A stretch of DNA of 33,508 nt from Xenococcaceae cyanobacterium MO_188.B29 (GTDB lineage Bacteria > Cyanobacteriota > Cyanobacteriia > Cyanobacteriales > Xenococcaceae). The notes under the pieces are model-generated. The model did not search any database and was not told the origin of the DNA. It was given only the letters and a program-made list of their open reading frames with translations. The first letter of the stretch is position 1; every line of letters starts with the position of its first letter. The position numbers were made by a program, and so were the translations under genes. The DNA lies in assembly GCA_030065155.1 (NCBI GenBank), contig JASJDI010000035.1:1-33508 (forward strand). Reading direction: 5' to 3'. Positions 8,364 to 26,504 of this stretch are shown here, in pieces.

Positions 8364-8371
8364 TAGATATG

Positions 8372-8379
8372 CCTCCTCT
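8372..8379 (-). promoter_or_regulatory. Strong Shine-Dalgarno of pflB
   Basis: On the minus strand AGAGGAGG precedes the pflB ATG with an 8-base gap. Most genes in this window have weak or no recognisable SD, so this near-consensus site suggests efficient translation and confirms the start. Confidence 0.8.
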
Positions 8380-8869
8380 GTTTTCTCTTATTTTTTGGTC
8401 TGAGGTTGCTGCCTAATTAAGCTTTTACGTTAGGATTAATTATAGCTTAAGTAAAGAAAAGTTTGGCAATTTTAATAACTAAATTTATCTCCGATTAATT
8501 AAGAATTTTGAGTACATTATAATGAATATTTTCAGTATTTATCAAAGTAAGCTATAGGTTATATCAATGTTGACTAATACCCTAATAACTTAATTCCATC
8601 CCCCACATTAACAGTATAAAAAGACTTGTGCCAATTAGTTTACAAAAATTAAAGATGTTTTGATTCTCTCAAATAAGCAATTTTTATATTGTTTTAATAT
8701 TAATCGTATAATTAATGGCTAAAGATTTTTTTGTATCTTGAATAACCATAATTTTTCTAGATATTAATTAAAATTTAAAAGCAAAATAGGAAACATTTTT
8801 TTAAAATCAATTGCTTATAATTGAAAGAAAAAATCGAGCAACCCTTCACCCAACTCGGAAAGATATTTT
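8380..8869. promoter_or_regulatory. Divergent promoter region, pflB / acetate-CoA ligase
   Basis: About 490 AT-rich bases with no supportable ORF or tRNA separate the two divergent start codons. The only dyad I can point to is TCAATT-N6-AATTGA at 8807-8824, 45 bases before the ligase start. Its two 6-base arms with a 6-base gap have the geometry of Crp/Fnr-family sites but not the TGTGA or TTGAT sequence. No clear -35/-10 pair stood out. The region must hold both promoters and is the natural place for redox or carbon control. Confidence 0.4.
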
Positions 8870-19165: not shown

Positions 19166-19237
19166 AAATTTAAAAGCGATCGACTATTAATCATTAATAC
19201 AATGTTAGTCTACATAAGTCTCCTGAGGAGAAAGCTG

Positions 19238-20359
19238 ATGAAACGTTTAATAGTTTGTTGTGATGGAACTTGGCAAAGCCAGGATAATCAAGTTCCGACC
19301 AATGCCTTCAAAATTGCTCAAGCAATCGAACAACTAGATAAGCGAAATAATATTCCTCAAGCTCTTTATTACGACCAAGGAATTGGTGCAGTTCCCAGCA
19401 GAGGAGGAACGCAGGCATTTTTAAAAAGCATTGGAGATGCTATCGAAAAAATAGGTGGGGGAGCTTTTGGCTGGTGGATCGATGAAAAAATTGAAGAAGC
19501 TTATATTTTTCTTTGTCTAAATTATGAAACTGGGGATGAAATATATTTATTTGGTTTTAGCCGAGGAGCTTACACAGTTCGGAGTTTGGTTGGTTTAATT
19601 AACTGTTCTGGTCTACTTAAACGTCCCGATATTAACAATACGGCTGAGGCTTATAGTATTTATCGTATCGGCGATCGACAAAGACGTGACGAGTCAGCTA
19701 AAAAATTTCGTCAAAAAAATAATATTTACGAATCGGTCAAGATTAACTTTCTGGGATGTTGGGACACTGTTGGGTCTTTGGGTATTCCTAATCTTACTCC
19801 CTTACTTTTAGTTGACGACTATCTCAATGTGAGATATCAATTTCACGACAACGAACTCAGTTCGATTATTGAGAATGCCCGACACGCGATCGCTATAGAC
19901 GAAAGAACACCAGGCTTTGATGTTGCCATTATGAAACCAGGAAAGGATTTTCAGGGAACATTAAAACAAGTTTGGTTTCCAGGAAATCATACTTCGGTTG
20001 GCGGTGGTGAAAAAGAAACTTTGGGTTTGTCAAATGCTGCTTTGAGATGGATGGCAGATGAAGCTAGTGAGTTGGGTTTAGATTTGGATTTAGACTTAGC
20101 TGAAAATACGGACATTATCGACTTTAAAACTGATTTTCAAAACAATTGTATCTCAAAGATCTTAGATGTTTTAGATCCTTGCGGAATAACAGAGCGCGAT
20201 ATTACCAATTTGAATGATAAATTGCCCGATGGATTTAAATTCGATCTGGACAATAGCTTTCATGAAAGCGTTAAAAAACGTTGGTGCGCTGACATAGAAT
20301 ACCATCCTAGTAAACTCAAGGAATTTATTGGCAATAACCCACATAATTGGTGTTTATAA
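19238..20359 (+). CDS. DUF2235 alpha/beta hydrolase (Tle1-like)
   Basis: A 373-residue protein from the ATG at 19238, preceded by GAGGAG with a 7-base gap; 12 more codons are open upstream but lack such a site. LIVCCDGTWQS at the N-terminus, the nucleophile elbow GFSRGAYT (S108), CWDTVGSLG (D176) and FPGNHTSVGGG (H251) form the expected Ser-Asp-His triad. DUF2235 includes type VI secretion phospholipase effectors (Tle1), but many members are stand-alone and no secretion or immunity gene is seen here. No signal peptide is visible, so it is probably cytosolic. The substrate is unknown. Confidence 0.85.
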   Translation: MKRLIVCCDGTWQSQDNQVPTNAFKIAQAIEQLDKRNNIPQALYYDQGIGAVPSRGGTQAFLKSIGDAIEKIGGGAFGWWIDEKIEEAYIFLCLNYETGDEIYLFGFSRGAYTVRSLVGLINCSGLLKRPDINNTAEAYSIYRIGDRQRRDESAKKFRQKNNIYESVKINFLGCWDTVGSLGIPNLTPLLLVDDYLNVRYQFHDNELSSIIENARHAIAIDERTPGFDVAIMKPGKDFQGTLKQVWFPGNHTSVGGGEKETLGLSNAALRWMADEASELGLDLDLDLAENTDIIDFKTDFQNNCISKILDVLDPCGITERDITNLNDKLPDGFKFDLDNSFHESVKKRWCADIEYHPSKLKEFIGNNPHNWCL

Positions 20360-20449
20360 CTACGAAGATAGTAATTAGATAATTGCTGCCTTTGCTAGTC
20401 ATTTAGCTCTCTTTTATTAGATAAACAATAGAGCAAAGTAGAACGTATT

Positions 20450-20608
20450 ATGTACCAAAATCAAAACTTTAGCAATCATCAAGCTCAAGTTGCCTGGAAT
20501 AAAGGCGCAGATGCTTGGAATCATTTTGTTGAATCAAAAGTGGATTACAGCAATTCTCATTTTGGAAAAAAAAGGGGATTTAAACTGCGTCTAATTGGAA
20601 ATGCATAG
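20450..20608 (+). pseudogene. N-terminal fragment of a SAM-dependent methyltransferase
   Basis: Beginning at ATG 20450 the frame reads 52 residues. The first 33 (QVAWNKGADAWNHFVESKVDY) match the start of class I SAM methyltransferases in which AWN-GADAW-xFVES precedes the Rossmann domain. After VDY (near 20548) similarity ends and about 20 unrelated residues lead to a stop. The SAM-binding motif is absent. The break coincides with the beginning of the hairpin-rich element described next, which suggests disruption by insertion; no downstream methyltransferase half was found. Confidence 0.6.
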
Positions 20609-20840
20609 TTTAAGTGACGCACACTTGGGGTAAACCCACACGGGCTTCCTACTTCGACGATAGTTGACTAGACAAAGGGATAGCTGTGTCCCCGACACAA
20701 TAAAGTTTTCTTGAGAAAATAGAAGATTCTCAAGCAATTAGTTCACCGCCACGCCGTTTTACCTCAGTTTATGACCTGGAAAACCCAGGTGGGTATCTGT
20801 GCTGTATGCATTCCATTTCCGAGTACAAGCTCGGTCTACT
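20605..20840. ncRNA. Hairpin-rich element, candidate structured RNA
   Basis: About 235 bases without coding potential but with dense inverted repeats: TGGG/CCCA at 20626-20638; TGTGTC/GACACA at 20685-20699; CTTGAGAA/TTCTCAAG at 20710-20734; ACCTGG/CCAGGT at 20774-20790; CCGAG/CTCGG at 20819-20834. An alternative longer pairing joins 20638-20649 (ACACGGGCTTCC) with 20677-20689 (GGGATAGCTGTGT). Local GC is higher than the flanks. It follows a broken methyltransferase gene, so it may be a mobile-element RNA such as an IscB- or TnpB-type omega RNA, without its protein. That identity is a guess. The remaining bases to 21092 hold only TTAGTTATTAGT-like filler. Confidence 0.4.
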
Positions 20841-21092
20841 TTTGCAAAAGCTACTGATTCCCGAATAAATCAAGCATAGATCAACAAACTATATTGGCAG
20901 TCACCAACGTAGCAGTGGAACTCTTTCTATGATAATAATTTTTGAATTTTTAGCAAGTCCTAATTAGTTATTAGTACTAGTCATCAGTTAGATAAAGTTC
21001 GCGAACCACCCTTACAGTTATTAGTTAACAGTTATCAGTTAACACTAAGCGATAGGATAAAAAAGATATCTAGATAATAATTTAAGTTTTAA

Positions 21093-22013
21093 GTGGAGCT
21101 AAAGCACGTAATCATTGCGTATAAAGCAGGAGACAGCAATAGTAAAATCTGGGCAGAAAGATGTGCGAAAGAACTAGAAGTACGTCACTGTCAAGTTTTA
21201 CTTGGACCAAGTGGGTTCAAAGACAATCCTTATCCAGTCTTTTTGGCTTCTGCCACTGCTAAAATTGATTTAGCGGTAGTTTTAGGAGGAGATGGTACAG
21301 TTTTGGCTGCTGCCCGTCATCTCGCGCCAGAAAATATCCCTATCCTAGCGGTAAATGTTGGTGGACATTTAGGTTTTTTGACTGAGCCTTTTGAATTATT
21401 TAAAGATACAGAAAACCTTTGGCAACTTTTAGAATCTGATTTATATGCCGTACAGAAACGGATGATGTTAGAAGCCAATCTTTTTGAGGGCGATCGATCT
21501 ACTTCAATACCAGTAAGTGAGACGTTTTTTTGTCTCAATGAGATGTGTATTAAACCCGCTAGCATAGACAGAATGCCTACTTCTATTCTAGAAATGGAAG
21601 TAGATGGGGCAGTAGTAGATCAGTATAGTGGGGATGGATTATTAGTAGCTACCCCTACTGGTTCTACTGGCTATACTATTTCTGCTAATGGCCCTATTTT
21701 ACATCCTGGGATGGAAGCAATTTCGGTAACACCAATTTGTCCTCTCAGTCTTTCTGGTCGTCCTCTTGTGCTTCCTCCAGGTAGTATCGTCGATGTGTGG
21801 CCTTTAGGAGATTACGAAGTTAATACCAAACTATGGACTGACGGAGCTTTAGCCACTACTATTTGGCCAGGACAAAAAGTATCTGTAAGAATGGCAAAAT
21901 GTCAAGCAAAATTTATTCTTCTACGCAAAAGTTATTCTTTCTATCAAACTTTAAGAGAAAAATTGCAATGGACAGGAACAAGAGTTCACTATGAAAATAA
22001 TGGTTCTTCTTAA
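21093..22013 (+). CDS. nadK: NAD kinase
   Basis: A 306-residue NAD(+) kinase making NADP from NAD with ATP or polyphosphate. The GGDGT motif is at 65-69 in VVLGGDGTVLAAARH. The second hallmark, TPTGSTGYTISANGPI, lies in the middle, and NVGGHLGFLTE near residue 90 is typical. It starts at a GTG (21093, VELKHVIIAYKAG), which agrees with the N-terminus I recall for one of the two cyanobacterial NadK paralogues. It is 32 bases before the MscS gene on the same strand, so probably first in a three-gene operon. Confidence 0.93.
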   Translation: MELKHVIIAYKAGDSNSKIWAERCAKELEVRHCQVLLGPSGFKDNPYPVFLASATAKIDLAVVLGGDGTVLAAARHLAPENIPILAVNVGGHLGFLTEPFELFKDTENLWQLLESDLYAVQKRMMLEANLFEGDRSTSIPVSETFFCLNEMCIKPASIDRMPTSILEMEVDGAVVDQYSGDGLLVATPTGSTGYTISANGPILHPGMEAISVTPICPLSLSGRPLVLPPGSIVDVWPLGDYEVNTKLWTDGALATTIWPGQKVSVRMAKCQAKFILLRKSYSFYQTLREKLQWTGTRVHYENNGSS

Positions 22014-24872: not shown

Positions 24873-24904
24873 CAACTTGCTGTGGGGAAATATTTATTAG
24901 TTAG

Positions 24905-25275
24905 TCATAGACAGATATTCTGTTCTGTTCTTTCTCCCCATTCTGTTACTGTACAGCCCAAATACTTTCCAACAGAAGTCTCAGATGGAGCAAACAACTC
25001 AATTTTACTAAAACCAGACGCATCACCGTGTTCGACCATTAAATGACTACCGATAAAACCGATATGAGAAATACTGCGAAAGGAATAACTAGAAAATTCA
25101 TCAGGTAAGGTTTTTTCTCCTGGTAATTGGACAGGATAGATTTCATAATCAAGCCAACTATCTTGTGGTTTCAATATAAAGACAGCACTGTACTGAGTCT
25201 CAACGCATTCATCCATTAATACTCCAACTGCCACATTACCAGTTTTTCGATCGATGGCATGGTCAAAAAATAACC
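24905..25275 (-). pseudogene. 3' part of a lipoprotein gene split by an IS
   Basis: This stretch continues, in frame, the gene whose 5' half lies beyond the insertion element. Reading from the target duplication it gives RLFFDHAIDRKTGNVAVGV and on to EWGERTEQNICL and the stop at 24905. It has no native start. The C-terminal part has two cysteines (GCTVTEW and NICL). No domain is recognised. Joined to the 5' half with one target copy removed, it makes a 219-residue lipoprotein. Confidence 0.8.
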
Positions 25276-26504
25276 TAGGGAAAACGCATCTAATTGATGA
25301 AATCCTTGTCAGATAATGTTTTTACTTAACCAAAAAAGTGTGATGACACTTGTCATCAGGAAAAAACAAGAGTAGTTCTCAATAAATCCCCGAAAATTAG
25401 CTATTTTTTGACCGAAGGCAACTAAAATAAACAAGGCAATCAATATCAGTTATCAACTGACGAAATAAGAGGAAAATATCCAATTTGTTTTCTGGAAATT
25501 TGCCAGATTAACTAGTTAAAACTTTGAGTAAATATTTATTGTCCCATCCCGCGTTCTTGCGTTTATTCTTCACTCCTGCTTTGAGAGTTTTTTCCTGTTT
25601 TAAAAGATTTAAAGCTATGTGTCTAATTACAGCTAAATTCTCAGGTGCATGCTCTTTTCTAATCCGAGAAGCATCTTCATTAAAACTCACATCTAAAACC
25701 CAATGTAATTGATTCTCTATACACCAATGTTTTCTGATAGCTATAGCAATTGCTTGGTGATTTTCAGCCTTTAGGCTACTAATAAAATATCTTCTTTCCA
25801 GAGTAGTTCCCCCTTTTTCTGTTCGTAAATAATCTACATAAGCTATGGAATTTAAACCCTTCCATTCTCCCTTGGGGTCAATGTCTTGACTGATATTAGT
25901 TAAGATTTGACAATATCTGGTTTCCTGACGTCCATGGTCATCTTCAGACAGTCGATATTCAGTTTTTATCAACCCTTTAAAATCCTGAAGAATGGCTTGT
26001 TCAAATAGTTTTTCTACTCGCTCATACAAACCACCTTGGTTTTTCTTTAAGGCAATTACATAATCCCCCTTAAAAAACATTGTTGCAATTGTTCTGGATT
26101 AAGTAGAGAAAATACTCGGGCAAATGTATCATGAGATGGAATTCCATTGGGCAGTTCTAAAAATTTTTTCAACCATTTATACTTACATTTTCCATATAAT
26201 TCGATATCCTTCCACCCATCTGCTCCACAAATAACTGCACAAATACTAATGGTAATAATATCAATTAATTTATGACGTTTTGTTCTTTCTATTCTCGGAT
26301 CTTCTAGTTCGCTAAAATGGTCGTTAATTGTAATTTTCGGTCTGAGTTTCATTACCTGTCAATTAATCTTTTTGAAGATTATAGCGGTTGCGAAAACTGG
26401 AAAACCTCGGTTGGCGAATCGGCGATCGCCCTAGGTTACATCACGAGGACTTGAAACCCACATAACTAGCAATTTGTCAAGAGCATTAAGATGCGTTTCC
26501 CCTA
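25276..26504 (-). mobile_element. ISAs1-family insertion sequence (internally deleted)
   Basis: The element is 1229 bp. Terminal inverted repeats start TAGGGAAAACGCATCT at the left and TAGGGGAAACGCATCT (complement) at the right, with about 18 of 21 positions matching. It is flanked by a 10-bp direct repeat AAAAATAACC at 25266-25275 and 26505-26514, matching the 8-10 bp target duplication of ISAs1 elements. The transposase on the minus strand is broken. Both flanks belong to one lipoprotein gene. The intact duplication implies that insertion is fairly recent. Confidence 0.85.
25508..26352 (-). pseudogene. ISAs1-family transposase with internal deletion and frameshift
   Basis: The N-terminal part (26352 down to about 26070) reads HFSELEDPRIERTKRHKLIDI and [21 protein letters not shown], typical of the ISAs1 DUF4338/H_repeat-like start. 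The second frame (26080 to 25508) resumes at [13 protein letters not shown] and continues to the [22 protein letters not shown] block that holds the catalytic glutamate. The intervening about 90 residues known in the family, with the two catalytic aspartates (in IDGK and IDAMGCQ), are missing. The junction is near 26065-26080 and shifts frame. Full transposases have about 370 residues. It is inactive. Confidence 0.85.

Follow-up and report, generated by a model that had tools for sequence, protein, structure and literature searches.

What accounts for the cluster of hairpins at positions 20605-20840 of the window, the whole 33,508-nucleotide stretch of DNA from Xenococcaceae cyanobacterium MO_188.B29 that was analysed? 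A preliminary description of the locus had drawn a single inserted element. In this study, we found from the sequence that the interval is a composite of two neighbouring minus-strand features, and not one element. The features are listed below.

20929..20956, minus strand: promoter-like site TTGCTA-16-TATCAT, upstream of 6S (consensus scan, suggestive only)
20739..20921, minus strand: 6S RNA (ssaA) gene, full length (cmscan match to RF00013, fold z and covariation)
20698..20738, minus strand: spacer of 41 bp with an 8-bp hairpin, CTTGAGAA/TTCTCAAG, at 20710-20734 (inverted repeat)
20614..20697, minus strand: decayed right end of an IS200/IS605-type TnpB element, the 3' part of its omega RNA, or reRNA (homologous copies and covariation)
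20649..20696, minus strand: last 15 codons of tnpB, VGDTAIPLSSQLSSK, and the stop codon (translation compared with the relative copy L085)
20622..20644, minus strand: right-end hairpin of the TnpB element, with two pairs lost in the window copy (alignment columns 65-90)
20450..20560, plus strand: gene fragment for the N-terminus of a class I SAM methyltransferase (48% identical over 33 residues)

The interval therefore did not hold the element that had been drawn. It held only half of the 6S gene (20739-20840), together with the spacer, the transposon end and a piece of flank (20605-20613). Read along the minus strand, the 6S RNA gene (20921 to 20739) comes first, followed by the dead transposon end (20697 to 20614). 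We regard this arrangement as very probably the best explanation of the locus. It is a known global regulatory RNA next to a common transposon scar, a curiosity and not a discovery. The result mainly has value for annotation, as it places the only 6S RNA gene detected in this organism beside a scar that accounts for the remaining hairpins.

The 6S RNA gene and its downstream side

A cmscan search matched RF00013 at 20739-20921 of the minus strand (84 bits, E 4.6e-17, model positions 1-187). The match was full length and exceeded the gathering score of the family, 46.4 bits. This was the sole RNA found by cmscan across the whole window. The fold of the region had a z of -4.0. When 22 homologues were aligned, double-sided changes appeared at 17 of the 43 pairs, and 96.6% of cells were paired compared to 34-44% in slid controls. 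The gene gave a single match in its own genome, and a search of 60 related genomes found it in 58. One genome of the same genus was searched; there, 6S lay inside a match of 240 bp at 95% identity, and the divergent NAD-kinase neighbour of 6S was common to both genomes. A promoter-like TTGCTA-16-TATCAT fitted a 6S start near 20921-20924, and the scan called 3 sites in the region against 1.9 expected.

The RNA shares its closing stem, central bubble, apical stem and single copy with the cyanobacterial 6S RNA known as SsaA, 6Sa or Yfr7, and we found no structural difference between them. Its length of 183 bases is as expected for cyanobacterial 6S, reported at about 175-185 nt. The neighbour differs, being NAD kinase here and purK in Synechococcus and Prochlorococcus (PMC1242208). 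The preliminary description had suspected a TnpB remnant at this locus, which was right in part, but the 6S RNA, the larger and surely functional part, had gone unrecognised.

6S RNA forms a long hairpin whose central bubble imitates an open promoter, and it binds RNA polymerase with the housekeeping sigma factor. It is freed once a short product RNA has been templated on it by the polymerase, and in cyanobacteria it aids sigma factor switching on nutrient change. This action (promoter mimicry, product-RNA release and support of SigA recruitment) is described from other species (PMC5721685). Binding of the RNA polymerase holoenzyme and templating of product RNA were observed in vitro for the Synechocystis homologue (PMC5721685). 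We infer that the gene is expressed and functions in MO_188.B29.

The 8-bp hairpin in the spacer (20698-20738) may be the 6S terminator. In relatives, a hairpin and a T run often occur soon after 6S, with a different sequence. A terminator scan did not call the spacer hairpin, and its T tract is poor. Since the 6S terminator is doubtful, transcription could read through into the transposon stub. In the same-genus genome, 6S was followed by a Cu-oxidase_4 (pgeF-type) gene, which lies on another contig in the own genome. This displacement indicates that one of the two lineages underwent a rearrangement downstream of 6S.

The TnpB element remnant

A search with 20590-20720 (minus strand) matched 18 sites among relatives and a single additional site in the own genome. 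A check for copies in relatives had been proposed as a way to define the ends, and these copies supplied a shared GTCAC terminus. The segment 20614-20697 was 80-93% identical to copies in the own genome and in relatives. At eight of the matching places, the right end continued the zinc-ribbon end of a tnpB frame; five of these eight were full-length tnpB (384-390 aa), with 90-100% identity to each other's type sequence. The TnpB proteins of L085 and L086 (384 and 390 aa) carried OrfB_IS605, HTH_OrfB_IS605 and Cas12f1-like TNB domains (Pfam) and matched ISDra2 TnpB structures with E of about 1e-73. We aligned 14 copies, namely the window copy and 13 related ones. All 14 ended in GTCAC (20618-20614 here), and the flanks diverged past it. 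Both this terminus and the covarying right-end hairpin were common to independent copies. A plasmid search gave one match, on a Stanieria cyanosphaera PCC 7437 plasmid, and the exact 26-base pattern had no match in viral contigs.

In ISDra2, the guide RNA of TnpB spans the tnpB 3' end, the right end and some 16 nt of flanking sequence (PMC8612924). As in ISDra2-type IS200/IS605 elements, the tnpB 3' end here runs into a right-end hairpin with a sharp terminus, and the TnpB of intact relatives is close to that of ISDra2. The window keeps the tnpB C-terminus in frame, with VGDTAIPLSSQLSSK before the stop where L085 has VGDTAIALSSQVSSK. Unlike IS200/IS605 TnpB elements, the window copy has lost its left end along with almost the whole of tnpB; the helix 1 5' arm is also missing, and three further pairs besides helix 1 are broken. 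Because only 15 tnpB codons and the stop remain, compared to full genes in relatives, it is a remnant and not an element. The idea of a TnpB omega RNA left without its protein applies to about 84 bp (20614-20697) and fails for the remainder of the interval.

Three omega RNA helices were backed by covariation in the 14-copy alignment. In the right-end hairpin, 5 of 7 pairs showed double-sided changes; the score was 0.381, compared to 0.01-0.14 for slid versions. Unpaired cells numbered 8 of 266, and the window copy accounts for all 8. Five of them lie in helix 1, which lost its 5' arm to truncation at 20697; helix 2 has one and the right-end hairpin two. The own genome holds a second stub with 67% identity over 36 matched residues, but otherwise none of its TnpB matches exceeded 41% identity to the cognate TnpB; the best full-length one was 40% identical, and the 41% refers to a 278-residue partial match. 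The would-be guide, the 16-base flank, had no second exact target in the genome. The assembly consists of 383 contigs and is about 90% complete, and a cognate TnpB could be missing from it. Given the truncation, the mispairing, the lack of a close cognate TnpB in the draft assembly and the lack of a second guide target, the TnpB stub is most likely dead. Intact copies transcribe the tnpB end and right end as omega RNA, which with about 16 flank bases guides the TnpB nuclease. A stub without the left end, most of tnpB and one omega RNA helix arm most likely does nothing. Covariation across transposon copies can thus tell an omega RNA that has decayed from solo ones that are intact.

Such omega RNA-like right ends standing alone were also observed at L002:1451-1584 (own genome, contig 78), near 1501 in L007 (Stanieria plasmid NC_019765.1) and near 1136 in L006. 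These had little or no tnpB left, yet kept every pair of the three helices. No closely cognate TnpB was found in the own genome (at most 41% identity over more than a stub) or in genome G002 (52%). These solo ends may be recent scars or trans-acting, and they are a better lead than the window copy. In one genome, L006, L014 and L016 shared a stretch about CACCTTAATTAACAACTTAAAATAAAAGCCCCCTTCCGCAGCCTAGGTCGATACCTC immediately before the right end. It was joined to a cut tnpB end in two of the three copies, as if a small element had inserted.

Hairpin density and alternative readings

All stems named in the preliminary description were present in the sequence. Besides the 8-bp stem of the spacer, they include TGTGTC/GACACA at 20685-20699 and the hairpin GGG-TAAA-CCC at 20628-20637. 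ACCTGG/CCAGGT at 20774-20790 is a hairpin in the 3' half of 6S RNA, and CCGAG/CTCGG at 20819-20834 is its apical stem. The mutually exclusive pairings pointed out earlier reflect the broken state of the window copy: GACA can pair with a TGTC that lies 3' of it, forming the omega RNA hairpin GACA..TGTC, or with one that lies 5' of it, forming TGTGTC/GACACA. The competition between GTGT and GACA thus agrees with the omega RNA hairpin. The claim that the stems are far denser than in other gaps was unsupported. Dinucleotide shuffles predicted 3.3 stems of 5 bp or longer, and 8 were counted (p 0.03); for stems of 6 bp or longer, 0.7 were predicted and 3 counted (p 0.04). These numbers are only marginally above shuffles. 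The density was unremarkable among window gaps, with 3.39 stems per 100 bases here, 4.35 in the gap 8364-8869 and 2.99 in the gap 24873-25507. The region looks structured because two known features nearly abut. The inverted repeats TTAAACT/AGTTTAA and TGCGTC/GACGCA lie in pseudoknot order across the transposon terminus (window 20580-20621). These repeats are probably due to chance, and they were missing from the second copy in the own genome.

The marginal counts favour the reading of the stems as a chance cluster without history, as does the fold of 20590-20740 alone, which did not surpass shuffles for either strand (z -1.3 and -1.5). However, two independent homology results, both covarying, span almost all of the interval; the homologues already refute this reading, and we consider it highly improbable. 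An IscB-type (HEARO) omega RNA, which the preliminary description had named as one possibility, or an intron relic would match the general impression of dense hairpins, but the related copies carry tnpB and not iscB. Rfam models searched over 20400-21100 at E up to 10 found the 6S RNA (RF00013) and no match to HEARO, group II, an intron family or any other Rfam family. With tnpB-linked homologues already refuting it, this reading is scarcely credible. A tRNA/tmRNA search found none.

The stub might instead be a working omega RNA, used in trans with a TnpB encoded elsewhere and perhaps made by read-through from the 6S promoter. The strand shared with 6S, the doubtful terminator, the mostly retained right-end hairpin and helix 2, and 19 own-genome matches to the TnpB zinc-ribbon family agree with this. 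However, the loss of helix 1 and the three more broken pairs occur only in the window copy, the nearest full-length own-genome TnpB is as distant from the cognate as given above (40%, or 41% for the partial match), and the guide flank lacks a second exact target. These points make a working stub very unlikely. A fused 6S-omega RNA transcript, arising by such read-through and used in trans by some TnpB, is less probable still; if true, a transposon guide RNA stub would be expressed from a global regulator gene. A 6S RNA gene followed by a dead TnpB transposon end remains the preferred reading.

The methyltransferase fragment and window neighbours

The broken methyltransferase gene reported earlier is real. 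The plus-strand fragment from 20450 is the N-terminus of such a gene and showed 48% identity over 33 residues to a 262-aa class I methyltransferase (VLDMGCGQGRF); the fragment alone had no Pfam match. No intact methyltransferase was found in close relatives or plasmids, and a distant one was found in a WOR-3 MAG. The preliminary description placed the element directly at the methyltransferase end, as if inserted there. The similarity stops at about 20548-20560, roughly 50 bp short of the transposon terminus, and interruption by the transposon was not supported.

Just before the fragment, the gene at 19202-20359 encodes a Tle1-like phospholipase catalytic domain (PF09994, E 6e-81), with a 47% relative on another contig in the same-genus genome. 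A DDE_Tnp_1 transposase fragment at window 25508-26352 is a second transposon remnant in the window.
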